Program-made: the position numbers and the translations under genes | Assembly: GCA_948474755.1 (NCBI GenBank) | Contig: CAOLHI010001149.1 | Span: 124,001-188,000 of the forward strand | Length of the DNA: 64,000 nucleotides | DNA from: Ctenosaura bakeri | Taxonomy: Eukaryota; Chordata; Lepidosauria; Squamata; Iguanidae | Reading direction: 5' to 3' | Notes under the pieces: model-generated | The model's database searches: none | The model's input: the letters and a program-made list of their open reading frames with translations, nothing else | What the model was told of the DNA's origin: nothing | Shown: in pieces, positions 326-64,000 of the stretch | Position numbering within the stretch: the stretch's first letter is position 1 | Layout: the number at the start of each line of letters is the position of its first letter

Positions 326-546
326 GGCCCTTTCACACTACATAATTATAGCGCTATGATTCCATTTTAACTACTATAGTACTTCCTTTGGAATGCTGGA
401 TCCATAGTTTGGTTGGAAACACCAGACTTCTGTGGCTGCGAATTCTAAATGCCTCTCTGCAAGCTGCAAACCCCAGAATTCCATAGATGTTGTTGTGGCA
501 GTTAAAGTGGAATCATAGTGCTCTAACTGTGTAGTGTGAACGGGCT
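326..546. mobile_element. Fold-back (palindromic) MITE, diverged copy
   Basis: Left end ggccctttcacactac and right end gtgtgaacgggct are inverted; both arms contain 'ttatagcgctatgattcca'-like sequence and the core with ggaatnctgg. The spacer is longer and less palindromic than in the young copies, which marks this as an old member of the family seen at 3655, 4465, 30774 and elsewhere. Confidence 0.7.
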
Positions 547-870
547 TTAAGTGACTGAAAGATAGGCTGATTGACAATTTTTGAAGGTTTGTAAAGGAGA
601 AGGGGGAAATCAGGTCTCAGCAATGTGTTTGCCCCTTTATCCTAGGTCTTAGCCACTCCTCTGTCTCTCAAGGCGAAGTTCACCTGCAGGTTGTTGGGAA
701 GGTGATGGTAGGAGATGGGAAGATATTTTGAGGAGACAAAGGGAAGGGTGGCAGTCATTGTAGATAAATGTGACACTTGTCTTTCTTTAAAAAGTACTAA
801 GGCACCTTAACATAAAATAGAAAAAAATACTTAGTATGTCAAAAGCATTTCATAAAATAGCAGATTCTAA

Positions 871-1095
871 GATGTTTACATCCAGTCTGATCTTGGAAGC
901 TAAGCAGGGTCAGAACTATTTAGTACTTGGATGGGAGACTGCCAATGAATAATGCTGTAGGTTATATTTCAGAGGAAGAAACTGACAAAACCACCTTTGA
1001 ATATTCCTTGAATGAGAAAACCCTATGAAATTCATGGGGTCACCATAAGCTGATGGGTGACATGAAGGCACATGCACACAGAAGGTATCTATTAA
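871..1095 (+). repeat. 5S-rRNA-derived SINE
   Basis: The head reads tctgatcttggaagctaag, then cagggtc, then ttagtacttggatgggagac, which is the internal-promoter region of vertebrate 5S rRNA. A body and 3' tail (gtcaccataagctgatgggt) follow. The 5S part is mutated and its 5' end is missing, so it is a retroposed SINE head and not a 5S gene. Confidence 0.8.
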
Positions 1096-1127
1096 GCACA
1101 ACATAAAGATTAAGGGCAGTGTATGTA

Positions 1128-1322
1128 AAAGAGCCGGTGTAGTATGGTGGTTTGAATGTTGGACTGTGACCCTGGCAATAAGGATATGATTCCCAGATTG
1201 GCTATGGAAACCTACTTGGTGACCTTGAGTGTATCACATACTCTCAGTACTATAAAATCCTGTGATAGCTTCACCTTAGGGTTGCCATAAGTTAGAAATG
1301 ATTTGAGGGCACACAACAACAA
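1128..1322 (+). repeat. tRNA-derived SINE, full copy
   Basis: Starts with gtggtttgaatgttggactg (tRNA-like box A region), continues through tggaaacctacttggtgacc and ends tagaaatgatttgagggcac plus an acaacaacaa tail. The same consensus recurs at 16594, 34505, 46806 and 56112. Confidence 0.75.

Positions 1323-2345: not shown

Positions 2346-2393
<48 letters not shown>
2346..2393. repeat. Compound (TG)n(AG)n microsatellite
   Basis: Alternating TG then AG dinucleotides adjoin an antisense 5S-type SINE; a similar compound repeat occurs at 55421-55486. Confidence 0.95.
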
Positions 2394-2820
2394 TCAAGTG
2401 GACTTATGGCAACTCTGTGAATTTCATAGTGTTTTCTTGACAATATTTATTCAGAAGGGGTTTGCCATTGCCTTCCTCTGGATATAGCCAACAGCACCTG
2501 GTATTCTTTAGCAGGCCCTAGGTGAGACCCTACTTAACTTCCAAGGTGTGTGTGTGTATATATCTTCAAGTCACGTGTTGATTTATGGTGACCTCATACA
2601 TTTTTCATACAGTTGTCTTCATCAAAGAACACACAGAAGTTGTTTTGTCAGTTTGTTCCTCTGAAGTATAGCCTACAGACAACAGTCTGTCAAAATATGC
2701 TAGAGATCCTGTCTGATCTTGAAAGCTAAGCAGGGTCAACCCAGTTAGTACTTGGATGGAAGATCACCAATAAATACCAGCAGTTGTAGGTTATATTTCA
2801 GAGTAAGATTAGATTTGGTG
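2394..2820. repeat. Cluster of three 5S-type SINE pieces in mixed orientation
   Basis: 2394-2527 and about 2530-2690 read antisense: each carries the SINE tail (e.g. gacttatggcaactctgtga) and body in reverse. About 2692-2820 reads sense, with gatcctgtctgatcttgaaa, gctaagcagggtc and ttagtacttggatgg. The last two therefore form a head-to-head inverted pair. Confidence 0.65.
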
Positions 2821-3592: not shown

Positions 3593-3654
3593 GGTTTTAA
3601 ATCTAAGCGTTGGATTAATAGGTAAGCTATACTTTGGCTTTGTTTACATGTCTT

Positions 3655-3836
3655 TGGCCATTTCCACACTAGCCTGTTCTAGCGCGATGATTCCACTTTC
3701 AACCTCCTCTGGAATCCTGGGGTTTGCAGTTTCGGGAGGGGCCGGCCGGCCCCTCCCGAAACTGCAAACCCCAGGATTCCAGAGGAGGTTGAAAGTGGAA
3801 TCATCGCGCTAGAACAGGCTAGTGTGGAAATGGCCA
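3655..3836. mobile_element. Perfect 182-bp palindromic fold-back MITE
   Basis: Read base by base, 3655-3745 is the exact reverse complement of 3746-3836, with no mismatch and no spacer; the centre is ggccgg/ccggcc. Outer ends are tggccatttccacacta, and each arm has the family core (ttccactttcaacctcc, ggaatcctggggtttgcag). It lies 1,054 bp upstream of the PRICKLE3 ATG. No clear target duplication is visible. Confidence 0.92.
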
Positions 3837-4248: not shown

Positions 4249-4320
4249 GCAGGCAGGCGAGCAGGTGGCTTTGCATTGCACTTCACAGTGCAATGCAAAG
4301 CCACCTGCTCTCCTGCCTGC
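4249..4320. repeat. 72-nt inverted repeat (34-bp arms, 4-nt loop)
   Basis: 4249-4282 pairs with 4287-4320 with a single mismatch around the loop tcac. Each arm contains gtggctttgcattgcact. It differs in sequence from the fold-back MITEs on either side. It lies upstream of the ATG at the edge of the CpG island. Confidence 0.9.
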
Positions 4321-4464: not shown

Positions 4465-4656
4465 GGCCATTTCCGCACTAACCTATTATAGCGCTATGAT
4501 TCCACTTTCAACCTCCGATGGAATCCTGGGGTTTGCAGCTTAGGGAGAGGCCTCTGTGTGGCCTCGAAGCCCCCCCCCCTTAAACTGCAAACCCCAGGAT
4601 TCCATCGGAGGTTGAAAGTGGAATCATCGCGCTATAACAGGCCAGTGCGGAAACGG
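4465..4656. mobile_element. Fold-back MITE in the PRICKLE3 CpG island
   Basis: Ends ggccatttccgcacta and agtgcggaaacgg. Both arms share the private variant caacctccgatggaatcc. A short GC-rich spacer with a C-run (about 4570-4580) separates them. It ends about 234 bp before the start codon, so it is probably in the proximal promoter or 5' UTR. Confidence 0.85.
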
Positions 4657-4889
4657 TGGAGAAAAAAGAGGAGTGGGAGGAAGGAAGCCTCCCTGGGTCG
4701 GGAAGGGGCGGGACCGGGGTAGGGAGGGGATCGGAGTCAGCTCCTCCTCCGCCTCCCTCCTTTCCTCCCTTGGGAAGGGCAGGGAAACGCTGCGAGAGCC
4801 GCCGCCGCCGCTGCAGCGCCCGGGCGCGAAGGGAGGGCAAGGCAGGGCCGGGCACCTGGAGGTGGGCGAGCCGCCCCGGGCACCGGGCC

Positions 4890-4931: not shown

Positions 4932-7900
4932 GTGAGTCTGTCTCGGTGGGGCGGGACTCGCCCGGTGGGAAGGAGCCACCCTGGGAAGGAGAAGAGACGG
5001 GGCCCTCTCGGCTCTGGAAATGAATTGGGGGGGGGCGGTTTAGGAGGAAAGAAGAAGGTGAACCCTCCAACGCATTGCCATGGATGGGGGGGGGGATCGG
5101 GTGGGTTACTACCCCGCTTTTTATTCCCCTCCCTCAACCACCTGGTTTTATGAGAGGCGGTGTCCGGAGAATTGCTACATGTATACAAAAAAAACCCCAA
5201 GGCTCTCCGGGGAGGGATCGTAAAAGACTCCCCTGCATCACCTCCGAACAAGGTGGTCTTACGGGATCCTGGATTAGGGGGCTGATCGTGGTGGCCAAAG
5301 GGCTGAGGACAGGAGACCCACGTGGGGAGAAGGGCTGGAAGGAAGAGCTGGCTGAGAGTTGGCTGTCTAGGCGCCTGCAGGCCCGCCGAGGAGTCATGCC
5401 GAGGCCTTTTGATGGGAGCTGAGCGGGGGTTGTTAGGCACCAACTGGCTCCCACCTCCCCTGGAACCGGAGGACAGACTGGCCTGGACACTTTGCAGAGC
5501 AACAGGAATCCTTATGGGGTGGTTGTGTGACAAGATCCCTTAAAAAGTTACTAGGGGTGCTGCAGATGCGATGGGGTGCTATAGTCCGAGGGCACCAAGT
5601 TTTGGTGAGGACTAGAAAGAGTTGACAGGCGGGAGGGGAGGGGATGGTGGTCTCTGGAGTATGAGTCCTCCTTAGACCCTAAGATGGCACTGTGGGACAG
5701 AGTCCCCAAAAGGCAGAAGGGGATGTCAGGTGGGTTGTGGAGAGGGAGGGTTGGATGCTGGCAGAGAATGTTGCAGCCTTCCCCAATCTGGCACTTCCTT
5801 GATGTGTTGGACGACAACTCCCATCATCCCAGGCTAGTGTTGCCATTGGATGGGGATGATTTGGGTTTGTAGTCCAACACGTTGGGAGGGTCCACTCCTG
5901 GGGAAGACTGAAAGTTGGACTAAGGGTAGTCTTGCTCTGACTAGCAAGCCCTATCTTGCTCTTTTAAGTAAGAACATATTCTCAAGGCCAGGTTAGTTAT
6001 TTATTAGTTAGTTATTCTCAAGGCCACAACTCTTGTGCTTAGAAGCAGAGCTGTATAATATCTTCACCATTGGCTCTACTGGTCAAGACTGATGGAACTT
6101 TAACTGTGAAAATATCATACAGCTATAGTTTATACTTAGAACTAAACAAAATCATTGGGTCAAAGAGGTTCTTTGAAAGGTAGGACATGGAGAAAGTGAA
6201 GCCAGGTGACTGGAGGGTTGTTATAAGTTTCCTCAAATGTAAATTGTGTAGTCCCAGATACCTTTGAGACAGATTCTTTCAGTTCTCCAAAGAACTCCCA
6301 AATATTCTCCAAATATGTTAGACTACTATAAACAAGGGATATAGTTGTGATGATGGGAGTTGTAGTCTTAACACATCTGAAGAGCATAAATTGGGGAGGC
6401 TGTCCTAAGGCATCATCTCAAAATTCTCTGTTCCTTCGTAACCCATCAAGAGCGTCCACTCATCACCAGGAGCAGCCACTTAAGCGTGCCAGCTGTGTTT
6501 TAAGCTTAAACAAGAAGAACATTAGAACAGATCCTTTGTAGGCTTACTTTCTTTTCTTGAAAACAACTGAGCATTTTGTGGAGGCATTGCCAGACCTTTG
6601 CCAGGATGGGAGTAGAAAGCTGGAAATATGAAAGAATTTTCTTTCATAAATTTAAATATATCATACATTTCTATGAAATAAACTCTTGATTGATTGATTG
6701 ATTGATTGATATAATACGTATTATACGTATTATATACTGTTTTCAATACACTGTTGATATATTGTTTATATGTGTGTGTTTATATATATAGTTATTGTTG
6801 AGCTGTAGTTGATACAGATGCATATGTATACACATACCTTAACACACAATACTCTTCTCTGTTTAGATTTATTAAAAGCCCTGCCCACACAATTATAGCA
6901 CTTCCATTCCACTTTAACCGGCATGGCTCCTTCCTATGGAATCCTGGGGTTCCATGGGGTTTTTAGAATTTTCTACCAGAGAGCCTCAGTGCCTCACCAA
7001 ACTACCAATCCCAGGATTCTGTAGGATGTAACCATGGCATAGTAGTATCAAAGTATTATGCCAAGTGTGGATGTGTCAGGCCTCCAAGAACCATTACAGG
7101 ACACCCAGAATTGCCTTCATATCTCCTGGGGGCAGTAGCCATGCAGGAGCTGTGGGGCAAAGTCCAGCACGTTGGACTTACTGGAAAGTCCAGCATTTTA
7201 TAGTAATAGATGTTGTGGAATTTGCTCCATGGAATCTGTGGGTCTCTGAGCTACAGAAACTTTTGTGGGAATTGGGATGGTGGAAGGAGAACAGGACTTC
7301 AGTGTGGTTTTGTGTCTGTGATTCTCATTTCACTAGAGACATCCCACTTTCCCAAATAGCTCAGTCTCGGTTGTGGTGGCTGACAGGAATGTTTCATGGA
7401 TGTAGATGGCTTGTGCAGTCCCATAGCATCCAGTGTTAGCTTAGTTAAGTGCCATGGACGCTGATGGCACTAAATGAAAAACAAGCAAAATAATTATGTA
7501 CTCTGGTCCTTGCCTGGAGGGAAGTGTGAGCTGCCAGTGTTGATGCTGGGGCAGCTGGGGAGGAAGGAAAAGTGGGCAGAGAGAAACTAAGATGCTAAGA
7601 ACATGTGGAAATATTTTTACAGGTACTTTGGCCTGTTTTTAATTGGGACTGAAGATTGTGGAGTTAGGTGCAAAGGCTTTATGGGTGAAGTAAGATTTGA
7701 AAGAAGAGGCTTGGCAGCAGGTGCTCTGGGAGGCAGTTCCAGCTACAAGGGATCTCAAGGGAGAATGGATGAGGTGTTTTGGAGAGGTTGTGTTTTGGCA
7801 AAAAAGAGTGGTTTTGGTAGAAGAGCAAAGGACACAAGCAGGGGGTCTAGCTGGGAAGAAAGACAGGAAAGTAGGGCAGGGCAGGCAGTCCTTTGGATAG

Positions 7901-11833: not shown

Positions 11834-11873
<40 letters not shown>

Positions 11874-14800
11874 TTTAATCTCTTTCTCTCTCTTTTTCGG
11901 GGGCAGACCCTCAGGCTGCAGTCCTCTATGCACATAGAGAGTAAACCCCATCAAAGGCAATAGGGTTTACTGCTGACTAAACATGAACAGTGTTGCGTGG
12001 CATGCCGCTCCCGCTTTCTGTTCATTCTTATAGCTGACTCTTCTTGATTTTGATCCAATCTGTTTTGCACTCCTTTCGTTCCTCTGATTGATTCTGTTGG
12101 TTTTAGTCATTCTGTACTTAATACGCTGCTCACTGACTCTCCATCATTCTGAACAGCAATTTAGATAAGAAGTTAAAACATTGCCCCATCCCCTGCATCT
12201 TTTTCTTTTGTCCATCCCAATTGCCACTGCCCTGATCTGGGAGGGAGGGAAGAAGAGGCAGGCACAGCTCCATCATCCTTCGACCCAGAAGCAGATGAAA
12301 GGCCCTTCTTCCATCCAGACTGGCACTGCCCTGGCCTCAGGGAAAGAGAAGAAGGGGAAGTGTCTGCTAGACTTAATTCCCTCCTGCACTGCCATCCCTT
12401 CTTCCTTTTGTGTCGTGTCTTAGTTAGATTGTAAGCCCAAGGACAAAGAACTGTTTTGTTGTTCTTTTACTTGTAAAGTGCCACGTCCAGTGATGGCATT
12501 ATATAAGATGATGATGATGATGATGGAAATTGCCATTTTAGAGATTAACATTCTTACATAATTTTTGTCTCTTGAGTTTCTTCTTCACACTTCTTCCCTC
12601 TTTGTTCTTCTTCTAAATACATTCCTCCCAGATGCACCATTTTCTCCCTTTCACATGCACATGCTTCCTTGTCTTAAATTTGCATTTCAGCAAGAAAGCC
12701 CTAGAGTGGAAGAGATTCGTTCCTTTCTGTCTCTTTCCATCACTCGCTCCATTTCCCCCCATCTCGCACACTTCTGCATCTCCACACTCACTGTTCCTGT
12801 CTTGCTGTGCCACTGCTTGACCAGCCTGGCGTTTCTCTGCCTGCTGCCTACAGAGACTGTCATGAACCTTGGGAAGGAGAGCCTGGGAGCTCCTCCCTCC
12901 TCTGTCACTAATGAATTATTGACTTCATTGTATACAAGGAGCACAAAGCCTACTAGACTTTCAGTCCCTGGAGCCAGTTTTTAGTTGGGTGTTGGAGTAA
13001 TTGTCATGATGGACTTGGGCATGTCAGGTGAGAGTGGGTGGGAAGCACCCAAGATCAGGATCAAAACACCTTGTCTTCGTAAGGTTCGAGGCAAATGCAG
13101 TGTGGTCACGTGCTGGCTTCCAGTTGAAGAACCTTTTATTGTAAGCTGCTTTTTGAATTAACTTGAAGGATTGACATAGAAACACCTATAATGAGTAGGA
13201 TGAAAGAGGAAGAGATAAAAGAACTTGGTATGGGGTTAGAATGAGTTAACAGCGTTTCTTTTCAGCTGTCTCCCACCCACCGAGTTGTAAAGCATCTTGG
13301 TGACTCATAAGCCAGAATCCTGATGCTTAATCCCAACTAAAGTAGACCCATTGAATCAATTGTTGAATTGTGAGTCAACAAGAGGGTAAATACCATTGAT
13401 CCATTCTATTTAGGATTAACAAGTGGATTCAGGCCATACTATCCAGTTTTCTTTTTATAAGTGGCTCATAACATTTACATTAAGACAGTCTTTTTAGGAT
13501 CTCTGGGTCTGCATATAGAGTGTGAATGGATGTAAGGATATGTGGTGGGTGGGATGCATTTAGGATTTCTCAGGTTCTGACAAAATTCTGTTGTGCTGTT
13601 TCTTACACTTTGTGGTTTGGGTGAGTGATTATAAAACCTATAGTGTTTTAGCAGGAGTGTTATAGAAGGAGTCAAGAAAGTGTGACTTTCCAGATGTCAC
13701 TGAATTGCAACTCCCACCATTCCTCATCACTTGCTGTTAATTATGGCTAGTGGGAGTTGCGCTTCAACAACATCTGGAGGGGTGGCACTTGTTCCCCAGC
13801 CTTGTGTTATAGGCTATCTCAAGAGCCATAAGAAATGTTTATGCTCCTGGGTGGTTTGGTTATTATAGGCTCCCTTGAGTGTTCCAGGAGTCACTTTTAA
13901 CGTTTCTCTTCATCTGCAGAAAGATCTGCCAGCACTGCAAGTGTCCACGTGAGGAGCATGCAGTGCGCATGGTGCCTGTTGACTTGGAAAGGATGATGTG
14001 CCGTCTCATCTCTGACTTCCAGCGCCACTCTATCTCAGACGATGACTCGGGCTGTGCCTCAGAGGAATACGCTTGGGTGCCCCCAGGACTCAAGCCTGAG
14101 CAGGTGATGCCAGTGGAATTGTGTGTGGTAGAGGGAGAGGTTGTCCTTTCAGGGCAGCTAGTATCTTTGGGTGGGGGATTTTCCTCAGGACAGTGGCAAC
14201 GGAGGAAGGGATTACAGCTCTCCCTCTGCTCCTAAACATGCTGCAGTGCTGACTTTTATTAGTCCTCCAAGTTGTTTGTTTTGTTTTGTTCTTTTAAACC
14301 ACATAAGCCACATCTCATAAGGCTATTCAATTTTGTACTACAGTCAGCCATCCACATTTGCAGGTTTCACTTTTGTGGATTTGCTTATTCACAGATTATG
14401 TGCTGTCATCTCTGCTGCCTCCCTATGCCATTTTTAATAGTGACTGCAAGCCTTGTGAGACTGAGAAACTGTGAAACAAGGCTTGTAAATCCTTCTTAAA
14501 AATGGTGTGGGGCAGCAGTGGGGGTGGCAGTAAGCGCCACCAGCCCCCCACTTCTGCCTTGTGAAGGAACCCTGATGCCTCAAAAGAATCCACGGTGGGT
14601 TGAATATGGTGATCATACTTTTTTTGTGTGTTAAATATGGTTTGGGAGGGCCAGAGTTATTCACAAATTTTCCACTTTTACCGGGGTCCGTGCCCCTAAC
14701 CCCAGCGAATGTGGAGGGAGGACTGTAGTTTAATTGTTGTGGCTTAAAAGCCTGGTGGCAAATTAAAAAATGTTTTAATTTGTTGATGGAAAGATAGCAG

Positions 14801-17800
14801 GGACGGGGCCATCCTGGCCTCCCAAGAGTGGGAGTCCCAAAGGCTGGGAGGACTGTAGTTTAATTGTTGTGCTCTGGTGAATCTTGAGAAGTGCAGTTTA
14901 TTTGACTTTTTCATCTCCCCTGCCTTTGAACTACAGCTCCCAGGTTCTTAGGAAGAGTGAATGAATGTTAAACCACTTCAAGTTTATAGTTTTCAGATAA
15001 AAGTTTCTTTGTGACACATGTTTTTCCCCTTTGAAGGAAGTCATGGAGGAAAGACAGCAAAGAATTGAAGGATTTTTGAAAGCAGGAGAGGATAGAAGCT
15101 GGGTGTTTTGGGGGCTGTTCAGTTGAAAGTGATGGTGATGACTTATAAAACCTTATGTGGCTTGGGTTGGAGATACATGAAAGACTGTATCTCCCTTTAT
15201 GAGCTGCTCAGGGTTCTAAAATCTTCAGGTGAGGTCCTTCTCCCTCTCCTGCCACTTTCTCAGGCTCATTTGGTGGGAACAAAGGAAGTGACCTTCTCAG
15301 TGGCTGCTCCCAGCCTTTGGGACTTCCACCCTTGGGAGGCCAGGATGGCCTCGTCCCTGCTATCTTTCCATCAACAAATTAAAACATTTTTTAATTTGCC
15401 ACCAGGCTTTTAATAACTGATTGGGATGGGCTTTTCATGCTGTGAAGTGTTGTTGGTAAGGTTTTTATGTTGTCTTTTAATGCATTTTAATGTTTATTGG
15501 TTTTGCTTTATAAATTATTTTTTTAAAAATAACTTTCATATTTATACATTTGTCGAAGGTTTTGTATAGTCTTAAACTATTTTGTTTTAAAATATGTTGT
15601 TAGCTACCATGAATCTCATTACTGAGAAAAAGGCGGGATATTAATAAAATAAATAAATAATAAAATAAGGAATGACATTTTGGTGAATCCTTCTGGGCAT
15701 TTCTAACCATGAACCCTTGCTACATACTTCTCATGTCATGATCATCTAAGATCATTCTAATAGTTTTTAAAATACAAGCGGTCCTCTTTGTTTATTAATG
15801 TTAGTTGGAAGAAAAGAGAAGATAAAGCAGGGGTGGGTATATTAGGGTTGCCAAATGAAAAACAAGATAGGGCTCCTCTATCTTTAATGGTTGTATGGAA
15901 GAAGAAATTTCAGTGGGTGGGGCTTGCATGACAAGCAACACCTGCTGACTTTCCCTCTTCTATACAACTATTAAAGGTACAGGAGTCATGTCTTGTTTTT
16001 CACCTGGGAACCCTAAGGCATGTTTGCTATAATAAATAACTTAACCAAGGTGCACATCTTGGACATTTTTTACTAGAGCTTCAAGTTCTGCCCAAGTAGT
16101 TTCAGCTCATTTGCCTTTAAATCCCTCACTAAGGAAGGTGCTATGCGGCCTAGCCAGCTCAGTCCAAATGTACTGTAGGTGACTGTCTTTTGTGGTTGCT
16201 GTTTTGGAGCCAAAGAGGCTCTGGAACTTGTATGGGGGCCAACCCAAAACATTTTGTTGGTTAACAGTGATGCCTCAGGTACCCCTCTTCTACATAGAAA
16301 AGCCAACCTAGCTGAATCATATTTTGATGCTGGCAGTGAGAGAGACTCCTCTACAATATCTGAAGGCACTGTGCTGATTTAGGGAGCTAAGCAGGAATGG
16401 GTGGGTATAAACTGGTACCCCATGCATTCTGTCCTCACTGCCTGTTGCCTGAGGTAGCCACCCCACTGTGCCTCAATGCAGGGCCAACCCTAACAGAAGT
16501 CCTAGATTGTCTCTTAAAAAATAACTAGGAAACATTGCAATTATTATTATGGGCAGTATATGCTAAGAAAATATATTGCATCCTGTTAGGGCCAAAGAGA
16601 CCCAGCATGGTGCAGTGGTTTGAGCTTTGAACGATGACCCTGGAGACTAGTTCAGTTCCTGGTTCGCCCATGGAAACCCACTGAGTGACCTTGAGCATGT
16701 CACACATTCTCAGCCCCAGAACACCCTGTGATAGGTTCACCTTGGGGTTGCTGTAAGTTGGAAACAACTTGAAGGCACACAACAATGAGAGTCAAAACCT
16801 CTTAATTAGGAGCTCTTTCTTGGAGAGTGCAGTATAATTGTTCTAGATAAATGAGCACAGGACAACTTTTTCTTTTACCACAGAAGTTTCCTCATGCGCC
16901 ATGTCTAACTTTTTTACACCCTCATCCATAGGAATGAGTGGTACCAACTTTCCTATCTTCATGCCCTCAGAGTACATATGATAATAGGCTGGATCCAGAC
17001 AATTTGCCTGGACAGATCAGTCAAGATTCAAAGCCCACTGATTATAATAGGAACTAAGTGCAAGGAAGAACCCTGGGTGGAACTCATGTGTCTTCACACA
17101 ATCAACTGATCTCAGTTCTGGAGGCAAATGTCTGAGTTGTACAGAATGTTGGGCAAAGATACTCAAAGCAACTTTGTTTGTTTTTGTAAGTGTTACCTAT
17201 CTGTGCCGATGTTACCTTTCATAAAGTTGGTTCTTTTCAAAACAAAGAGGCGGGAATGCGCAAGACAAAGGACTATATTAATTTAATTACAAGCCAGTTG
17301 CTGCCTTGGTATGTGTGTATGCGGAAGCATATTATGTAACCTGACCACTGTAGCAAGGCCAGACTGTTTGTAATCTGATTAGTAGAGCTCTTGTTTTAAA
17401 CTGATTATGGAGAAACATTTCTTTATCACTTTCCGGTTGCTTTTGACAGGAGGTTTCATTGTAGAAAGTGTTTACCCTTCTTATCTTGTGTATTATCAGG
17501 AGAACCCTGAGAGGCATGTTAGACCAAGAGAAGGTACTTTTTCTGAGGCCACCCAGTGAGTTGAGAGTTGAGCCTAGTGCAAGGGGGATGGAGTGAAGAG
17601 GTAATGTCTGTCCAAAGCACTTGAATACTTGTCACTGTTTGTCTTGGGGGTCTGTTTGAATGGCCCCTCCCATGTGCAGTGGGATTAGGATCAGACTTTG
17701 GACTCTGTGTCATCCCACCTGTCACTGTGTGCTGAAAATAACACCTGGAATGAAGACCTTCCATTTATTTGATTGCAGCAATACCTCTAATCTTGATTGT

Positions 17801-17977: not shown

Positions 17978-18012
<35 letters not shown>

Positions 18013-21000: not shown

Positions 21001-24000
21001 CAGCTTCCTAAGCTGCTCCTCACAAGGCGTGGCTTCCAAACCCTTCACCATTTCAGTCAGTCTCCTCTGGACACACTCCAGTTTGTTGATATTCTACTTG
21101 AATTGAGGTGCCCAGAACTGGACACAGTATTCCAAATGAGGTCTAACCAGTGCAGAATAGAGTGGTACCATTACCTCCCTTGATGTAGATGTCATACTCG
21201 TATTGATGCAACCAAGAATCATGTTGGCTTTCTTGGCTGCCGCATCACACTGCTAACTCATGTTCAGCTTGTGATCTACCAAGACTCCTAGATCCCTTTC
21301 GCATGTACTGTTATCCAGCCACATGTCCCCCAGCCACGTGTCCCCCATCCTATATTTGTGCATTCCATTTCTTCTGCCTAAGTGCAAGACCTTACATTTC
21401 TCTCTGTTGAAATTCATTTTGTTAACTTTTGCCCAGCTCTCCCTGTCCTCTGGTGTATTAGCAACCCTACCCAATTTGGTGTCATCTGCAAATATTCAAA
21501 ACATGGAAGATTTGTTTTTGATGATGTGGTGCTGGGAAGTAGGGTCAGACTGATGTGAAGGTGTGAACATGGGACACTGCCTCATCATTAATCAGATCAT
21601 TGAGCTATCTACTTCAGTGCTTCCAGCTCTACTGGCAGCAGCTGCCCAAAGTTTAAGACAGGATTATCTACTAGTCCTATTTGGAGATCCCTGGTGATGT
21701 CCCATCCAAGACAAACTAGGCCAAGCTCTGTGTAGCTTCCAAAATGAGAAATGAAGGGATGTTCAGGGTGGCATACAGGTGATGAAGGAAGGTCACCTGC
21801 AAGTAGTGGCCAGATAGACCTTTCACAGCTACATCCAGCCAGGGTCCTGCTCTCAAGCCTGTTACCTTCGGAAATACAATTGACAGGCATTGATGGTGAA
21901 GCTTTTTGTTACAGTGGTACTATTGTAATAGAGTTTCTTCTCTATACAACTTCCTCCTTTTTTAGACAGACTTTGAAAGCCTTCTCTTGACTTGTTCATT
22001 TGAAATATAGATTCACTGCCTCCTTATGATTAACTGCTTACAGTTTTACAGTATTATGTTTTTTACTAGTTTTTGTGCTTGTACAAGTGGTCTGAATGAG
22101 TTGTATGTGGTCGAGGGGGAGTGATGAAGGTGGAGATACATTTTAGAAACAAAACAAATCTTTCCTTCTCTATCAGGATGTGGTCATTTTGATTCACTAT
22201 TTTGTCATCTCAAAGATGACAATGTCCTCTGATGTGGAACTGCCCTAGATGCCTGCTTGTAGGTTTTAGTACAGCATCCTGACTTCTGGTGTGGATGATT
22301 GGTTGAGAGCAGACAGCGAGAACTCAGTGTCTGCACTGCCTACCCAACTATTGTCAGGACACCGTTTTCCATGCTTAGTTTTGGTTTATATAAAACCCTT
22401 GAGAGCTTGAGGCCTACAAATCTCAGACATAGTCATCCCTCCACTCTCTCATTATGGCAGGTCAGAAAGTCAGAAAGCACCTTCTTGACTGTCAGTATCT
22501 GGGCAGTGGCTTACAAATAGCAAGTGCATAAATAGCTGTTTCTTTGGTAGCAGAGCATGAAAAGGGTCATTCTTTGACCTACAGCTCTCTGAATCCTCCA
22601 ACTAGGAAGTCCAGCAGCCATACTGGCTGGAGGATTTGGGGAGTTGTTGTCCAAGGAAAACTAATGTGTGCAAGCTCTGTAAGATTTCAGACAGTGGATA
22701 GAACACTCTTATAGGCTGTGAGAGACTTGGGATGTGTGTGTGTGTGTGTGCCAGGATGGCTGTGGGGAAGAGGTGATGGTGTGTTTCTGTCCTCCCAACC
22801 CCCCACACACTTCCTGAACCTGACTAAGACTTCTGCAGGCAAGGACTCAAGGAAGGAACTTCTTAAAGTAGTCAGCTGGACCCTTTCCACCAGACGAGAA
22901 AATGAAATGCCACAAAAACAAAATGAAGCCGATCATAGTTGTGCTAAAATGACACAACAGAGCTTTGTGCTGAGCTTCTGTGCACTGGCACACATCCTGC
23001 TTATTAGACTTGCCAGAGTGAAAACTGGAGATGGCCCCTGTACCTTTAACAATTATGTAGAACAGGGAATTTCAGCAGGCGTTGCTTGTTGCTTGGTTAT
23101 CTGACAAGCAACACTTGCTGGAATTCCCTCTCCTAAAGGCACAGGTGCCCTCTCCCATTTTCAGTCTGGCAAACCTTATGTATACAGGCACAATTGCCTA
23201 CCATTCTAGGGAAGTGCTCTGGGATGTGTAGACTGTATGGGGTTATTTTGAGAAGTCTGGAAATAACATATGTGTTCGTGCCTCCTCTCCATCTTCTGCA
23301 AGGCATTCACAAGATGTTTGGGGGAAGTGGGTTGCAGTGTCCATGTTGGCTAGAAGACACTAGGAATTGTAGTGCTCCCTCCCACAAAAACTTGTCCAGG
23401 CTCAGGGCACCTTTCATCATCAGCATAGGAAATGAATTTCCCCATGGTGGTTTGCATGTCTGTGTGAGTCTGTGGTCATGCACACTTTTTTCTTGTCTTT
23501 TTTTTTTGGCAGCATTCCCCTTTGGAAGCCCTCTGCTCACACTTGTTTGCATTCTGGATAATTGAGGTTAATCTTTGTACGCCTGTGGCTGGACTGATAA
23601 TCTCCATGAAAAGGCATACAATTATCCTTACAACCTGTTATGCATATTATGCTAATTATACGTAGCGCTTCATTTATCCTGTGTTCATCTTTCACAAGAA
23701 TTTTTCACCAGACTGAATTTTGCAATGCATAGCATCATGTAAATTGCCCAAGTTTGTTTTTCTTTTTGGGTTACTTATTTGATTTTTCCAAGTTTAATGG
23801 TATTTTCAATAACTTCCTATATTGTACAACTGCCTTTCTTTATTTGCTGAATTTTACAGACACTACAAATAACATCTTCCCTTTGCAATTCTCCCATGTT
23901 TTCCTATTTCTTCTGCCTTTTTTTCCCTCCTAGCAAAGAGGTGTCTGTTAGCAGGGGAAAGAGCTGTTCGGTACCTTTTAATCTTTAGTTCTAGGTGTTG

Positions 24001-30310: not shown

Positions 30311-32865
30311 GGCTTCCCATTCAGGGTTTATGGCGCTGCAGCGGGACGTCTGGGAGGTAAGACCCCGTCCCCTCACCCTCTTCGCCTCACGCTCATTCGT
30401 GCCGGTGAACAGAGTTGCTTTCTGGGGTGAGCGAGCAGCTGGGCTCCCTTGCTTCCCAAAATGGCGGGGCTGCAGCAGCGGCGATTGCCCGGTTGCCTAT
30501 TCATTCTGGGCACACTGCTCCGTGGGAGTTGTCGGTGTGGCTGTCACTTTTGGTCCAGCGGGCAAAGGGGGAAACTTTCCTGCGGTGGATCTGCCATCCG
30601 ATGGGGGAGATCAGTCCCTCCGAGACCAAGAACTCGGTCGGGAAAGGAGCAGGGGGCGTCAGCCAAGGGTTTCAGTTTGTGTAGCAAGAGCCCCCGAGGC
30701 TCCTTGGTTGTTGGTTTTTTTTGTTTTGTTTTTTTGACCCAAAAGCGCTGCTCTGATCCGTCCTGTGGACTTTGGCCATTTCCACATTCCAGTGTTATAG
30801 CGCTATTATTCCACTTTCACCATCCTATGGAATTCTGGGGTTTGCAGTTCAAACTGCAAACCCCAGGATTCCATAGGATGGTGAAAGTGGAATAATAGCG
30901 CTATAACAGTCCAGTGCAGAAATAACCAGGATGACTTTCTCCTCTTACTTTTGTTGTGCATGGACCTTTGGCGCTTGCCACACACACGTGTTGTGTTCTT
31001 CGCCTGACTGTCTTGCATTCCTCGCTTTTTGTATGTTCAGCGTCCACACTCCCTTTAAGGGAGAGAGGAAGGGAGGGAGCGAAACAAAACGCGTCTGCTT
31101 ATGCCGCCGCCATCTTTCCTCTCTCCCTGTCCTTTCCTCCCTGTACCTCGTGTAAAATGTGGGCTGTTTCGGCATTGCCTTTGGGAGTAACTGGCTTTTT
31201 GAACTGTGGAAACCCAACATTCAGAACTAGAACTACTGCCTTAATTCTGGCATTGGTGGACGCTTTCTGTGCTTAAAAAAAGGGGGAGGGTTACCAGTTT
31301 TTAGGCATTAGAAGTCTATCCAGAGCAGTGATTTAGGGCAGTGTTTCCAATCTATTTGATGTTGGAAATAACTAACTAACTAACTAAATAATAAATAAAT
31401 AATAACAAAATGATTTTATGGTTGGGGGTCACCACAACATGAGGAACTGTGTTAAGGGGTCGCGGCATTAGGAAGGTTGAGAACCACTGGTCTAAAGTGA
31501 GGAAGCCAGACACTGCCGGCAGTGGGATGAGTGGGCTAACAGCAGTGGAAAGAGGACCTTTTTACAACTATCGCAGTTAACCAACCTATTGGCTGCTATA
31601 ATCACCTGAAGGCACCACAGTTCAGGGAATCTCACCTGTCATGTATCTCAAGTGCATAAATGGTGAGTCAGGAAACCTCTGGCCATTTCCATGCTACACT
31701 ATTACAGTGCTATTATTCCACTTTCAACATCCTGTGGAATTCTGGGGCCTGTAGTTTACTGATGCCAAAGAGTTCTCTGGCTGAGAATTCTAAAGCCCCC
31801 TCCCTAAAGTGCAAACCCCAGGATTCTATAGGATGTTCAAAGTGGAATAATTGCACTATAACAGTGTAGTGTGCAAATCGCCTCTATCTCTGGAGTACCA
31901 CAAACAAATCACATTGAGGTGGGGGCTTTGTTCATTAAAAAGAGCTAAAGCAGTGCTACTCAAGGTGGTTCTTCCTCAACTGGTGCCCATCCTCAAGACA
32001 TTGGCTGCCAGTCCTTCAGAGAGTTTCCAAAAGAGAAAGAAACAATGAGAACTAATATGGTACCAGGTCTGGCAGACTGGGGAAAAACATTGCCAGTCGG
32101 AAGCACTGAGCAAAGTACAACCTTGCCTTAAAAGTTCACACTTTTTGATCCAGAAGGATTGTTCTCTTTTTCCAGATGCATTAGGCTACTTGAGATTACT
32201 ACTTGTGAGTCATCATTCCAGTTTGAATGTCTCAAGGCTGAGTGCTCATATTGGGAGCGGGGTCTTTGGGAATTAAAGTCTTCGCAGTCTTTACCTTCTT
32301 GCTCTGAAATGAGTTAGGGAAAATTAAAAGGATCAAGCAGAACAAGTATCAGTCTCTGTGTGTCTCTTGGTCACAAGGTCCTAATCTCTAGCAATATTGG
32401 GCAGTCCTACATATGCTTGACATCAGCATGACTCATTAGAAAAGATGGTAATGCTTCGTAAAGTGTGAGGTAGTAGGAAAAGAGAAAGACTGGAATACAG
32501 GTGGGTTGACTCAATCAAGGAGGATCTGAGTCTGCAGGAGCTGAGAAAGGGTTCTTGATGACATGGTGACACAGAGGTCTCTCATTTGTAGGGCCGCCAT
32601 GAGTTAAAGCCAATTTGCTAGCATTTCACAACAATATTTGCTCTGCCATAACTGTGTGGAAGAGTTAAGAGCTTAGTATTGCTTTAAAAGGTGGTTCAAA
32701 AGTGGATTTGGTGGTTTGGGATAGACCTGATCCTGGGTTGACAGAGTAGGCCACCTTAGACATATAAATAAGTTGGTAGAGCAACAGTGACATCTGGTGC
32801 TCAGAATGAGCTGCTTAATTTCTCTTGGCTTCTAGTTATGTTCTCTCTCTCTCTCTCTCTCTCTG

Positions 32866-38668: not shown

Positions 38669-38704
<36 letters not shown>

Positions 38705-38930: not shown

Positions 38931-39188
38931 GCCATTATTAATGTAAGCATGTAACAAGGTTGTGTGGTTTTGAGCTTTGAGGTGTGTTTTCTCTATAAGA
39001 AAGTTATTGGATTAAGTGTGTGTTGGGGTGGGTGGGATTGAATTCCATTCCTTAACTGGTACAGTGTCCCGCTCTGTTGAATATGGGCATTCAGTGGGCA
39101 GAGTCAAAAGCTACTTTTGCGCATTAGAACTCAGGCCATTTCCACATTGCACTGTTGTAGTGCTGCTATTCTGCTTTCAATATCCTAT

Positions 39189-40132: not shown

Positions 40133-43100
40133 CTATGGAATCCTGGGGTTTGCAGCTTAGGGAGGGGCCTTTAAGAATTCTCATCCAGAGAGCTCTTTGT
40201 CCTCAGTAGGCTACAAACTGCAGAATTCCACAGGGTATTGAAAGTGGAATAATAGCACTATAACAGTGTATATTATAGAATCTCCCTGCCTGTGCTGGCT
40301 GGGGGGTTCTGTGAGCTGTAGTCCCCTCCCTACAAAAGCCCCACTTTTTCTGAGCTCTGACTCGGAGCCAACAACAGATCCTTCCAGTCTTACTGATACT
40401 GTTCTTCTCTTTTCCTCCAGCCTGTCTTTTTGCACTTTGTGCTCATTTCTCAAGTTTCCAGTTTTTAACAATTTGTTTTGTTTTCTAATTAAGAGTTTTA
40501 ATTTAAGTGAACTTTGAATAAAAATATATGAAGATCTTCTTGTGCTGCTGCATTGGATAGTTACATGGTGCTAGGGCTTAAGAAACCTGAGCAGGTGGAG
40601 AGGTGACATGTGAAGGTATTTGTACTCTGCGTGTTCAGGGGTGGCAAGTGGAGAAATAATCTAGCAGCAATGCTCTTGTGGCTTGTGGAGACATTTGTGC
40701 CCCAGCATGCTGAGTAGCGGAAATGGTTCTCATAGTACATTAAAGGCACAATAAAAGGAGTCTTTGTTGACATCTGTATCTCATTTTGGACCAGGTAGGA
40801 AATCATATAAAACACATCTGTAGGTGTCAAAACAAAACTGTTTACTGTTTCATAACCAAGCCACTGGAAGCTAGTCCAACCAAATGTATTTATTTTTGAA
40901 ATGCCCTTCCTCTGACAACTCATAGTGAGTCATTACGAAGGAAATATACTTACTATGTTTGGAATTGCTCCTTCTTCCAAGAGTTCTTCCTTTACCACAG
41001 TAAACTCTTTGTGAGAAATGTTGCTGGTTTTGGAGGATTCAGATTGCCATCTTTGCATCTGTGCATTTATCTTTGCAACCATATGAGCTAGGAAGTGGGT
41101 GATTTTGTTCTTAAAATCTAATTAATGAAAGCTCCAATTGCTAGTATGCTGCGTATTTTGTGCATCTGCAGAAATGTAGAACGCATAACAGTCTGGCTTA
41201 ACTTGCAGTGCTAAGGACACAACAAAACTTTCTTCCGATGACTCAGTTGTACCATATACTGACTGACGAGTTACACCTCGGTGATTTTGTTTAAGTAGCG
41301 CTTGCGCGTGTGAACTTGCAGCCAAAATGTATTGTTGCACAAGAGGTGGGAAAAATACAGTGCTATCTCCAGAGCTCATTCATTTCCCATGATTAAGCTG
41401 GATCCAGCCAAGCTCTGCTCTAAATCAGGTTTGTGCTCTGCAAAGAATTTTCCTCCCTCTATACTGCCAGCCCTGTGTCTCTGTTTGCACTTTCACACAC
41501 AACGCATACACACCAACAGTGCCATCACATAATGCACCATGCCCTAGCATAGTTCCACCCACAGAGAATGCTTCAGTAGTTGGGGCTAAAAATTCTCATC
41601 ATGTGGCTGCCATTCTGACATTTTCTACTTTATGTAAAACTATGTGGTGGCAGTGCAATATGATTATTCATAGTCTTAGAAACTAGGAGGAGAACCACCA
41701 ATTTGCATATTGTACATTTGCATTGGTAAAATATTTTTAACTTGGATACCCAAATTGATGGCCTTTGCCTATATGTGTATTTTTGCTTTGCTCAGTTCAT
41801 TTGTATTTTACTTTATCCAAAGAAGGCAGACAACAAATACAGGGACATTGTCTCTCATTTTTTGGGCTGAGTAAACCTCTCAAGAAGGTAGATGGAGGGA
41901 AATTTCAGAACATAAGCCAAAGGTAGCTTTGGCCTAGCTGATTGATAGCAGTTTGCCCAGACCCTCTCATGAGCTTCAGTCACTGTTTTAGATCCTGAGA
42001 CTGACTTCATGAATGATCCCATACTCTAAGGCTGAGATCATGCATCATGTGGGTGGAATGTACTGTTTTGTCTACTCAGTGTGAATCCCATCTTCTTTTT
42101 TCGTAGCTTCCACATGTCAGGAAGCACTGCCACAGCCATTTGCTGGCCAGCTGCGAGAACAGACAGAAGCATCTTGCTGGAGATTGGAGAGGCAACGTCA
42201 GCTCTCTTCTCCCTGTCACTTCCAACCATTCCTTTCCCAGGCCATAAAGTACCATGTCAGTGCATCCTGGCTCATGGAAGCTGAGGACAGTGGATTGTGT
42301 GCAAGGAGGTAATCAAATACTTCCTTCACAAGATCTAAAAAAGGGAAATAATGGATGTGCAATCTGGGGTTATGTCAAAAACATATTCCAACCTATGTGT
42401 GCTGCTTTGTTTTCTTTAAAAAAAGTCCAGTGGCACCTTAAAGACGAATAAGGTTTATCTGGACAGCAGCCCACTTCATCAGATGCAGACCACAAAAGTT
42501 TATGCCATGTACTTACCCTTTAAGTTGTGGTTAGACTCTTTGTTATTGTTTTTGCTGTGATACCTCCCCCTTTGGAGTTCTTTTTTTATTAGTCTCCACA
42601 AATGGAAAATATTAAAAAACATTGCATTATGGATCAGAAATCAAAGCACAGTGGTAGTTGTGGCTTGAAGTAAGACATGGGACGGGAGATAGTCCCAGTG
42701 TGAACAATTCTAGATAGAGTGGCTCATTTTAACAATTGTACTTATCATGCTTATGCCTCTGCTTTTAGTCTGGGGAGATCCACACATGTGGAATGGTTTG
42801 AAAGCAGCCATTGGCAACTGGTCAAGGTTTCTTGCCTGGCCAAGGTCTTCATTCCCAAGCCAGTAGTAAGAGCCATAACAGTTTTGCTCCTCCCAGAAGG
42901 TTACCCCTTATAAACAGAAGTTGTCATGATGACTGTGGAGAACCTGCATTTGGCTTGCAGATGGTCTGGGACAGGGAAGCATGGAAACATGGAAATGAAC
43001 AAGGAATTGATATAGCTCTTGAAAGGCTTTCCCTCCCTCTAGGCAACTGGCTTTTTTAGAACATCCATGAGATAGCAACAAGATATTTGACTGAAATCCT

Positions 43101-48364: not shown

Positions 48365-48566
48365 CGCCGTTTCCGCACTACACTGTTATAGTGCTATTAC
48401 TCCACTTTCAACCTCCTGTGGAATCATGGGGTTTGTAGTTTACTGAGGCCCAAGAGCTCTCTGGCTGAGAATTCTAAAGGCCCCTCCCTAAACTGCAAAC
48501 TCCAGGATTCCACAGGAGGTTGAAAGTGGAATAATCGCACTAGAACAGTGTAGTGTGGAAATGTCC
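48365..48566. mobile_element. Fold-back MITE
   Basis: Ends cgccgtttccgcactaca and tagtgtggaaatgtcc. Both arms have the private variant caacctcctgtggaat. The spacer, with ccaagagctctctggctgag, is retained. Confidence 0.82.
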
Positions 48567-55417: not shown

Positions 55418-55489
<72 letters not shown>

Positions 55490-61400: not shown

Positions 61401-61847
61401 CAGCAGCCTTGGTCACTATAACAAATGGAGAGAAATGCTGGGAGTTGCAGCCCAAGAAGATCTGGAGAGCTACACAATTCCTATTGTGTTTTAAATAGAG
61501 ATTTAAATGAGTAAAATGGAATTCTGTTTTCAGGTAGCAAAAGGCCTGGCCCAAGATATTTTGCTGCCTGAAGCAGAACAGTAAACAGTGCTCCAGGTCA
61601 CAATATTCAAGGTTCACAGGACTCAAAGCCAGCTTGTTTTGGCACATGAGGCAGAGAATCCCACAGGGACTTCTCTCTCTTCCTGGCAGTAAACACAAAC
61701 CAACAACAAAGTAAACTAGCAATCTGCTGTCTTTTCATGACAACTCAAAACATAAGTAAAACTTACATAGAGTGAGACAGCCATCTCATGACACAAAATG
61801 GTAGGGCGAGCCTTCAGTAGCAGTTGCAAGTATGGATCGTGCAGCAT
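49426..61847 (-). CDS. PLP2: PLP2, proteolipid protein 2 (four coding exons; 3' tail exon unresolved)
   Basis: Minus-strand exons 61847-61767, 54547-54392, 52036-51941 and 49516-49426 join in frame (phase 0, 0, 0, then 1) to 141 codons; human PLP2 has 152. The product has four hydrophobic segments of the MARVEL type. Diagnostic matches to PLP2 are ILILICYGASRTPGYTSLA (human ILICFSASTPGYSSL), FIHWGWTDFIRALIG (human FINWPWSDFFRTLIA), AFLITSLIVLI, LFGYDAYTLLPR and HTAAPT (human CLFGYDAYVTFPVR, HTAAPT). PLP2 is a small multispanning protein of the endoplasmic reticulum and plasma membrane that interacts with other membrane proteins. It lies convergent to PRICKLE3 as in mammals. Exon 1 is the weakest: it has a poor Kozak context (ttaATGc) and no CpG island. 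The coding end after HTAAPT is not secured. Confidence 0.88.
49517..51940 (-). other. PLP2: PLP2 intron 3
   Basis: 2.4 kb. Holds a fragment at 49620-49760 (gagtctacccattgactcaa, gtgagtcaacaagatgg) similar to 13310-13430, an L2-like LINE fragment near 50360-50560 and a tRNA-type SINE end (50985-51060). No exon recognised. Confidence 0.75.
50985..51060 (+). repeat. tRNA-type SINE, 3' end only
   Basis: gtgataggttcaccttaagg, gccataagctggaaatgact and cacaacagcagcag tail. Confidence 0.7.
51941..52036 (-). CDS. PLP2: PLP2 coding exon 3 (TM3)
   Basis: Thirty-two codons, DFIRALIGAVAFLITS to GHYDGAGIAAG, lie between tttag and a GTAAGT donor. It aligns throughout with the mammalian segment that starts DFFRTLIA and ends KIVAG. 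Phase 0 at both ends. Confidence 0.94.
52037..54391 (-). other. PLP2: PLP2 intron 2
   Basis: 2.4 kb. Holds an old repeat fragment near 52134-52215 (agaaataagtctcatttaat), a second type of tRNA-derived SINE (52664-52868) and AT-rich unique sequence. No exon recognised. Confidence 0.75.
52664..52868 (+). repeat. tRNA-derived SINE of a second family
   Basis: cagtgcagtggtcagagtgt, ggttcaaattccc (box B), gaactggggccagtcatact and a tail aaggcagcatataaatctaa. Its 3' end differs from that of the acaacaaca-tailed family. Confidence 0.65.
54392..54547 (-). CDS. PLP2: PLP2 coding exon 2 (TM1-TM2)
   Basis: Fifty-two codons lie between a ttctcctag acceptor and a GTGAGT donor. FGCILILICYGASRTPGY covers the end of TM1 and the TPGY loop; LAICMLIYCIVMFIIYTCEL is TM2. 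The end, FIHWGWT, aligns with FINWPWS of mammalian PLP2. Both phases are 0. Confidence 0.93.
55421..55486. repeat. Compound (TG)n(AG)n microsatellite
   Basis: TG units switch directly to AG units, as at 2346-2393. Confidence 0.95.
55821..55958. mobile_element. hAT-like MITE with imperfect 8-bp target duplication
   Basis: Starts cagcgtttgtaatcatgcgg and ends gttacccactccag; flanks are ttctagag and ttctaagg, an 8-bp duplication with two changes. Interior tggactgcaactcccaacat and the reversed gatgcagtctagcaacgcct are the family's arms. Confidence 0.65.
56112..56348 (+). repeat. tRNA-derived SINE, nearly complete
   Basis: tgttgtagtttgtgtgttgg, aacctaccagtgaccttggg, ctctgaacaaatcttgtcat and the tail gtcataagtcagaaatcatt plus acacaataacgacaa. 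Same family as 1128-1322. Confidence 0.75.
58215..58315. mobile_element. hAT-like MITE
   Basis: tttagactacagctcccagg and gattgtgggagctctagtcc are inverted arms; ends with aggtctggagggctaacc. Confidence 0.55.
59528..59632. mobile_element. hAT-like MITE, diverged
   Basis: cagatagatggactacaatt and gatgagaattgtagctcatc are partly inverted arms ending acagctggagggt. Confidence 0.45.
61767..61847 (-). CDS. PLP2: PLP2 coding exon 1 (tentative start)
   Basis: Twenty-seven codons begin MLHDPYLQLLLKAR and run into a hydrophobic PTILCHEMAVSLY that completes the first transmembrane helix with exon 2. The exon ends at a GTAAGT donor in phase 0, matching exon 2. An in-frame TAA lies two codons before the ATG. 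A pyrimidine-rich stretch ending in AG at 61869 could be an acceptor, so a non-coding first exon may lie upstream. Confidence 0.65.
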
Positions 61848-64000
61848 TAATTATTCCGGGTTAATCAACTTAGAATAAAAGAAAATTCTCTGACATATTT
61901 GAGCATAAGAAATGTCTTAAAAGATCACTTAGAAACAGACAGCTGTTGTTCAGCTTATTCTGCAAAGAGATAGATTGAATGGTTTCCATTAGAGCAAGAC
62001 AAATTGATTCAATAAAGTTTGCAGTCTTCATTTGTGGTTTGCATTTACAGACAAACAATACAGCACACCCTTAACTGAAAGGCACCAGAGACCTTGGAGT
62101 CATAGGCAGTGTGCAACAAAGGTAGGGGAGGAAAACGTCAAAAGGAAGGAAAAAGTCACCTTGTTCCCTTATCCTTCCAGAGTCTTGTTGGAACACGAGA
62201 TTCCTATTGCTATAAAAACCATTTGCCACTCCCAAGCCAATAGGACACCCAACCCTGCAGGCTTGAAAAAAAAACACAACCCCAAAAAACTCTCCAGTAA
62301 CATTAGAGTTCTAGCTGCATTGGAGCAGCTATCATTGATTTGCAGGGGCAGCTGGTAATTTAAATGTTGATAGAGTAGTGAATCCATTCCCAGTTTTAGT
62401 CCAAACTTTAAAGTGAGTATCCACGATGTTGCATATTGTCTCTTACAATGGGTCAGCTCCTTGGATGCTTCTTTTAAAATCTGAAGTCAAGTTTGGCATG
62501 GATTCACTGCCCCACTGGCACAAATGTCACCATCCATGACTCTGTTGAATTCTGCAACAGAGAGCCAGTCTAACAAACTAGGACCAAGGACACAATCATT
62601 CAAATCCACACCCAGCCATGAAGATGGACTAGTCAGTCATGATCTCTCAGCCTGACCTAGTCCAGAAACTGAGACTGGAGAAGTTAAACAAGAAGTTCCA
62701 GAATCCCACCACTATTGTCATGGGAACTTGTGATTGGAAAAATAACATAGGAGGAGAGTGGATGGGAAGGGCTGCTTGGAGGAAAGGTAGAATATAAATG
62801 TAAGTGCCCCAAATCCTGAGAATAAGGAACCTAAAAAGTCTGCACGGTAAGCACATTGCCCCTCCTGGATCAGTCACAGAACTCTAGTGAAGATAAAATC
62901 AGTGAATTAGAATTCATGCTCCTGGGTTTGTTCTTCCAATTTTCAAGAGCTGAAAAACTGGATTGGAAGAGGTTTCCGTTAATTATTAATTAAGGTGGTA
63001 GAGACTTGGGGAGGAGAGAGAGAGACAGAAAGGAAGGGAGATAACTACAGCCAGCTGGTCTGGCACAGATGGCAGAGAAAACGCTGCACCCATCAGGGAA
63101 ATATGAACATGTTGCCTCACCCTTTTTTTTTTTTTACAAGGTCAACAGGGGCATTCTACTCCACCTCAAAATGTGCCTCTCCACACCAGAAGTGGGAACT
63201 GTCCAGCTCCCCAGTTGTTGAACTCCAGTTCCCAAACTCCTCAGTAACTAGTGCTAATAGGAGCTGCAGGCCAACAATTTCTGGAAGGCCACATGATCCC
63301 TACTGCTGCTCTAAAGATAGGATTTGAACACATGAAATGTATGTATACCACATTCATATATAATCTAGCATCTAAGCTAACAGGACCATTGACACCAAGA
63401 TGTTACAAAGTGTATGATTCCACTCAGAGTGTCAGCCAGCCACATCTCTATTCCAGGACAGACCACTCCTTTCCCAATCCTGTTTTCAGCCTCCCTTCCC
63501 CACTACTAACAGCTAGCCATCCCATGATGTGGCTACAGAATATGCTCAGTCTTAATTGCCTTTTGTTTTGTTCTCAAGTTCATGTGTGAGTTTCTGTAAA
63601 TCTATCCATGAGTTTTGATGTCTATCCATGCTGTCAATTTCTTATACTTGTGTGTGGATGGTGCTGTTTTGGCTATATAAAGCTTCACACATGGGCCTTT
63701 TTCGCACTAGCCTGTTGTAGTGCTATTATTCCACTTTCAACATCCTATGGAATCCTGGGGTTTGCACTTTAGGGAGAGGCCTTTGAGGTTCCTCCCTAAA
63801 TTGCAAACCCCAGGATTCTATAGGATGTTGAAAGTGAAATAATAGCACTGTAACAGGCTAATGCGGAAATGGCCAAGGAAAACAAACTTGACATTATTAT
63901 GGGGGACATACTCCTTAAAAACTCAGTCACGTTACTCAGTCAGTCTTCCATATTCTTACATACTGTTAACATACATGTAAATGCACACCTTTCATAACAG
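61848..64000. other. Region upstream of the identified PLP2 exons
   Basis: No coding exon and no CpG island seen. It holds a hAT-like MITE near 63205-63300, a GA-rich run (about 63014-63040) and a fold-back MITE (63694-63874). A non-coding first exon and promoter of PLP2 may be here or beyond the window. Confidence 0.6.
63694..63874. mobile_element. Fold-back MITE
   Basis: Ends ggcctttttcgcactagcct and aggctaatgcggaaatggcc. Both arms read caacatcctatggaat-like sequence (right arm with one change), around a spacer of about 15 bp with ggcctttgagg. Confidence 0.85.

Follow-up and report, generated by a model that had tools for sequence, protein, structure and literature searches.

How do the two arms of a small fold-back transposon come to carry the same variants, if each arm mutates on its own once a copy is in place? 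The question is raised by a 64,000-nucleotide stretch of the Ctenosaura bakeri genome (hereafter the window; bases 124001-188000 of contig C1149, in an assembly of 1.9 Gb and 8006 contigs), in which an initial annotation counted at least nine copies of a fold-back element family and proposed that the arms of each copy are re-copied from one another. The element is very abundant and short, and has the hallmarks of a non-autonomous DNA transposon, that is, a miniature inverted-repeat transposable element (MITE). Our analysis favors, with a probability of roughly 55%, re-copying of arms in the source elements, perhaps during transposition, and not steadily in place. The two halves, near-perfect mirror images, change together between lineages and decay mostly apart after landing, which suggests that new parent copies were made by one half being copied from the other.

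We located nine copies with both arms and one half copy in the window, in agreement with the original count, and the arms of the clean copies are ~77-92 nt long. The copies are listed below; a dot stands in place of a strand for several of them.

326..547, strand.: old (gen0) relative, poorly conserved, in which the arms are longer and the spacer is long.
3655..3836, strand.: short-spacer copy of subfamily 2b with two right-type arms, a perfect 182-bp palindrome with the centre GGGGCCGGCCGGCCCC.
4465..4658, strand.: short element with G at site 53 in both arms and an enlarged centre that includes poly-C.
6873..7071, strand - (taken from the spacer by eye): old (gen0) degraded relative.
30773..30928, strand.: short element with zero spacer and C at site 47 in both arms; the central GGGAGG block is gone from both.
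31681..31882, strand +: long-spacer (gen1) copy with a left arm of the TGTAGTTTACTGA type, a right arm of the TTTAGGGAGG type and a 3-bp target-site duplication, TCT.
39134..39188, strand +: half copy, a single outer arm.
40133..40270, strand -: long-spacer copy, reversed, with other DNA in place of one arm end; excluded from the counts.
48365..48566, strand +: long-spacer copy with unlike haplotypes in its arms (A24/T31 on the left, C24/G31 on the right) and C49 and G54 in both.
63694..63874, strand.: short-spacer copy, assigned to 2a by site 34 although site 18 is C; the word in its left arm, caacatcctatgg, matches the family consensus.

The copy at 3655, a perfect palindrome, is probably just young. 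The wider sample consists of the window and 300 kb of another contig of the same genome (C1), 364 kb in all. It contains 73 family places, 63 of them in the 300 kb, and the density on C1 is similar to that in the window (37 places in its first 210 kb). Sixty of the copies found across the sample are paired, i.e., about one per 6 kb, and 20 single arms were also recovered. Fifty-one paired copies were usable, six old gen0 copies and three with one arm replaced or truncated having been dropped; 22 of the 51 have a long spacer and 29 a short one. Automatic arm typing was wrong for two long copies (C1:126467 and C1:173717) and one short copy (C1:151337), which were read by eye. The short copies were divided by hand, on sites 34 and 21, into subfamilies 2a (14 copies), 2b (11), 2c (2) and 2d (2). 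Older relatives, at 326-547 and 6873-7071 in the window and at C1:36139, C1:195096 and C1:210026, carry extra TGCCATGGTTC-like arm bases that are absent from both arms of the younger family, perhaps through an earlier mirrored deletion.

Agreement between the arms of one copy is already evident within the window. The 13-letter words first reported for five copies are present in both arms of four of them; in the fifth, at 63694, the right arm reads caacatcctatag and is one base off. Among the six cleanest window copies, the two arms of a copy differ on average at 8.5 of 77 sites, a left and a right arm from different copies at 12.8, and none of the 720 possible pairings does better than the real one. 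The same non-consensus base occupies both arms in 21 cells, whereas column shuffles give 9.2 on average (0/20000). Chance is thus excluded for the window alone. The effect in these six copies is confined to sites 17-34 and 47-55 (2/720 each), with none at sites 1-16, 35-46 and 56-77; in the 29 short copies of the wider sample the other segments are weaker but present (sites 1-16, 2/5000; 37-46, 94/5000; 57-78, 0/5000).

In that sample, the comparison of distances within and between copies splits the family in two: short-copy arms group by partner, whereas long-copy arms group by side. Distance to the partner arm in the short copies is 0.107 versus 0.155 (0/5000 shuffles). The excess persists after stratification by subfamily (0.1081 versus 0.1299, sd 0.0038; 0/20000), is significant in both large subfamilies (2a, 13/20000; 2b, 0/20000), and is retained when the window's own copies are left out (n = 25; 0.110 versus 0.156, 0/20000, and likewise 0/20000 when stratified). 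In a tree of all arms, short arms form a cherry with the partner nine times, with a same-side arm four times and with some other arm three times; for long arms, one cherry joins partners and ten join arms of the same side. Clustering of left arms with left arms of other copies, which the initial annotation regarded as the sign against its proposal, is therefore what the 22 long-spacer copies display (nearest arm on the same side in 41/44) and the 29 short copies do not. Conversion of arms in place would make the partner the nearest arm whatever the spacer; the partner is nearest for 17/58 short arms and 0/44 long ones.

The inner arm ends reveal how the two forms are related. In long copies these ends differ, with TGTAGTTTACTGAGGCC on the left and TGCAGTTTAGGGAGGGGCC (read inwards) on the right, and both arms of short copies have the long element's right-arm form. 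At site 72, T is found in 19/22 left arms of long copies and C in 18/22 of their right arms; in short copies, C occupies 26/28 readable left and 28/28 readable right arms, no short copy has T in both, and site 61 is similar. The family comprises an older asymmetric form, with a 36-nt spacer class and distinguishable arms, and younger short forms with two right-type arms. The short forms make up palindromic subfamilies in which the left and right consensus agree, being identical in 2b and different at one site in 2a.

It had also been suggested that older copies keep the spacer and that it is progressively lost. The arms of long-spacer copies are more diverged (left-left, or A-A, 0.162; right-right, or B-B, 0.188) than those of different short copies (0.147 and 0.124 within 2a and 2b), in keeping with the first part of this suggestion. 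However, the gap is 36 in 20/51 copies and 14-15 in 18/51, and with such a bimodal distribution progressive loss looks unlikely. In the centre of 2a, read by eye as GGGGCCTC[T/A]GAGGCCCC, the CTGAGGCC known from the inner end of long left arms is fused to CCTCCC of the right arm, and a right arm in inverse orientation follows on the other side. This structure fits a GGCC-GGCC deletion and then fold-back copying of the right arm, in what would be the order of events. Origin of the short forms by spacer deletion alone was considered and rejected: two of the 29 (C1:36397 and C1:70899) are deletion-like, with left-type T at site 72 in one arm, and among the other 27 all 26 that are readable at this site have C in both arms.

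The description of the shared variants as private is not borne out, as most of them are shared with other copies, many being subfamily alleles. Only three both-arm alleles were unseen in any other arm among the 51 copies, namely, G at site 53 (4465), C at site 47 (30774) and C at site 27 (the long-spacer copy C1:135326, outside the window). Even the first of these is not restricted to its copy in the genome: a 26-mer with the 4465 allele occurs 82 times genome-wide, and at nine places, each on a different contig and one of them in the window, both arms carry it; it thus marks a small palindromic lineage. The word at 63694 is the family consensus, and that at 3655 combines alleles C49 and C54, each present in both arms of other copies. 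The word at 48365 belongs to a long-spacer copy, and its G54 is the commonest allele of long left arms (17/22).

Once a copy has landed, its arms decay mostly independently. Rare alleles in short copies occur in a single arm 89 times and in both arms seven times, and among all cells off the subfamily consensus 277 are single-arm and 45 both-arm. The seven do exceed the shuffled expectation of 1.09 (maximum 6 in 2000), whereas the two found in long copies compare with 1.38. Two CpG positions tell the same story in the 13 copies of 2b and 2c. At sites 28-29, change affects a single arm in six copies and both arms in one, five copies remain intact and one contains a gap; at sites 10-11, six copies are altered in a single arm, two identically in both arms and one in different ways in its two arms, and four remain intact. 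Among changed copies, alteration is thus limited to one arm in 6/7 and 6/9, respectively. Copies whose arms have diverged further do not hold more of the rare both-arm alleles (rho -0.18, p 0.36), and the mutation spectrum of these alleles does not differ significantly from that of one-arm alleles (7 versus 89, p 0.42; 13 versus 139, p 0.15).

Changes present in both arms are also combined across subfamilies. Ten transversion sites were picked by hand, and combinations were scored in the 29 short copies only where both arms agree; 12 of the 45 site pairs show all four combinations, as a raw tally without a null. For example, TTTC is replaced by TTGC at site 44 in both arms of the 2a copy C1:35360 and in both arms of the 2b copy C1:57766. 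These combinations do not fit one tree, and a simple tree of palindromic masters without recurrent change does not yield them. Copies with unlike arms are present as well. L006 (C1:52288-52489) joins a long-type left arm to a 2b right arm, L013 (C1:126467-126668) is chimeric, with a long-type left arm and a right arm like those of the short subfamilies, and the copy at 48365 belongs with them by its A24/T31 and C24/G31 arms.

What can be said of the proposal that arms are re-copied from one another is, then, that it is not supported as steady conversion in place, given the 89 to 7 ratio, the CpG sites and the lack of a rise with divergence, and that its core idea stands at the level of source elements, because short elements have two right-type arms and alleles from different backgrounds are combined in the two arms simultaneously. 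In the history that we favor, the right arm would have been copied in inverse over the left arm in a founding event, by fold-back or snap-back synthesis turning at the GGCCTC/GAGGCC centre, and similar whole-arm copying would recur later in source elements. A plausible setting is gap repair after excision, when the strand being synthesised on an inverted repeat is able to fold back on itself. Any mutation or arm exchange newly acquired by a source would be mirrored before that source spreads, and silent copies would be corrected rarely if at all. Fold-back synthesis, its coupling to transposition and its recurrence beyond the founding event are what we infer to link the observations. We further suggest, quite tentatively, a cycle in which exchange between copies yields unlike-arm elements (such as C1:52288 and 48365), transposition-coupled fold-back repair overwrites one of the arms, and the new perfect palindrome spreads.

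The most serious competitor, which we nonetheless regard as rather unlikely, is that of plain palindromic subfamilies: one founding arm copy, followed by a modest number of already palindromic masters and no repeated arm copying, with incompatible allele pairs arising from recurrent mutation or ordinary recombination between copies. The initial annotation had itself named subfamilies palindromic from the start as the alternative to its idea, and the 29 short copies go a good part of the way toward it, many of their shared variants being subfamily alleles. The status of the 4465 allele as the mark of a small family and the mostly independent decay of arms also agree with it. Yet subfamily differences are themselves found in both arms and so need mirroring, 12 of the 45 transversion pairs are incompatible with one tree, and the within-copy excess remains within subfamilies.

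Steady conversion in every resident copy, i.e., quasi-palindrome correction by template switching, working best with a short loop, would predict an effect that is strong only in short-loop elements, as observed; that short copies have more rare alleles in both arms than shuffling gives also speaks for it. Template switching is known to homogenise inverted-repeat arms in other systems (PMC8794818, PMC8604942). Nevertheless, we consider this explanation improbable: rare alleles are overwhelmingly single-armed, both-arm alleles do not accumulate with divergence, changes at both CpGs are mostly one-armed, and the 4465 allele is common to nine places on nine contigs. As a general rule, ongoing conversion is rejected on the side-clustering of the long copies and on single-arm decay. 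Least probable, in our estimate very much so, is selection or choice by the transposase, in which only matched-arm copies transpose well and sources look palindromic without any copying mechanism. The short forms are indeed younger and numerous (29/51), but long copies with unlike inner arms were amplified too (22/51), and chance double mutation seems too rare to account for many mirrored transversions.

Several observations count against source-level re-copying itself. Strictly, a single founding arm replacement is enough, and the mirrored changes after it may have arisen in other ways. A number of the four-way combinations depend on one copy each, and recurrent mutation could give the appearance of mosaics. 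Were the 82 arms bearing the 4465 word all products of paired births, ~20 both-arm places would be expected, and nine are seen; the shortfall might reflect CpG decay at the new CG, or arms that originated singly. At five automatically chosen left/right columns, one of which (site 88) sits at the alignment edge, left arms of short copies score 97 right-type, 24 left-type and 24 other, and their right arms 103, 17 and 25, respectively. A spacer-deleted intermediate, with a left-type arm joined to CCCTCCC, is absent from the 364 kb. No within-copy excess is found in 2c and 2d, with two copies each, and a slight one in long copies (19/5000; 1/5000 on the tree), strongest at sites 17-36 (32/5000), is unexplained. 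Finally, no re-copying event has been caught in the act, the history being read from copies within one genome.

As expected of a MITE, the element is short and dispersed, has inverted repeats at its ends and is flanked by a duplicated target site. An exact 3-bp flanking repeat is present in 25/54 copies, compared with 0-2 at ten other offsets. Immediately outside the duplication, 20/25 copies have C on the left and 20/25 have G on the right, so that a 5-bp C-NNN-G duplication is indistinguishable from a 3-bp one. Like Tourist-like MITEs of the PIF/Harbinger superfamily, the element is short, has inverted repeats with ends that begin GGCC, and duplicates 3 bp of target; unlike in those MITEs, the arms make up nearly the whole element. 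The PIF target is extended and CTTAG-like, and the C-NNN-G target resembles it. However, only 5/25 duplications are TWA (TTA 3, TAA 2), the others being ATA (4), TGA (3), TTG, ATG, TAT and TCT (2 each) and CTG, GAA, TAG, TGG and TTT (1 each). We therefore call the element PIF/Harbinger-like and do not file it in that superfamily. Nor does it have the very long, internally repetitive repeats of Foldback elements, since the arms are ~77-92 nt in the clean window copies and no internal tandem repeats were seen in the arms by eye. The window has no Rfam match at gathering scores, an exact arm word had no match when scanned against viral contigs, and in the literature searched, mostly outside subscription journals, no paper was recognised as describing this family.

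The idea that palindromic MITEs owe their like arms to copying is already known, and the novelty here is the dissected history. Angel of zebrafish, a vertebrate palindromic MITE, was reportedly interpreted by Izsvak et al. in 1999, in J Mol Evol 48:13, through a hairpin or strand-switch amplification model that gives alike arms; in the family described here, by comparison, the older asymmetric form, the right-arm origin of the palindromes and mosaic palindromic haplotypes are visible. Galileo/Foldback of Drosophila resembles it in having long inverted repeats and partner repeats that are alike in two of four copies. According to the section of the Galileo report on inversion-making recombination, repeats within copies 1 and 2 differ by 0.0018 and 0.0071, below the difference from other copies, whereas copies 4 and 5 (0.0628 and 0.0570) are without the pattern; those repeats are described there as longer and internally repetitive (PMC2775673). 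In Tetris of D. virilis, likewise a foldback element, terminal inverted repeats (TIRs) group together in two of three complete copies, which the authors suggest reflects homogenisation; Tetris differs in its tandem repeats inside the arms and its link to satellite DNA (PMC4079207). Template switching at inverted repeats likewise makes arms identical, multi-base events included, and is shown there for RNA genes and yeast coding DNA, not as a maker of transposon subfamilies (PMC8794818, PMC8604942).

The window contains further features outside this family. A second inverted repeat at 14744-15413 has 107-nt arms that are 97% complementary and lie 456 nt apart. The segments 15842-16016 and 23058-23135 both carry ACAAGCAACACYTGCTG near the centre, as seen by eye, and may represent a second fold-back family. 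A near-perfect palindrome with 34-nt arms (97%) is found at 4249-4320, close to two family copies. The open reading frames at 36838-38253 are presumably Prickle-like; the first contains a LIM domain (Pfam PF00412), and the next ends in CVVA and has no Pfam match.

It is an old question what lets MITEs become so numerous and why near-perfect palindromes are so frequent among them. With an asymmetric form, palindromes that originated from one arm, mosaics and mixed-arm copies side by side, this family makes hairpin and fold-back amplification models testable by genome comparison. If the cycle of exchange, overwriting and spread were true, the formation of palindromes would act as a recombination system from which MITE subfamilies arise.

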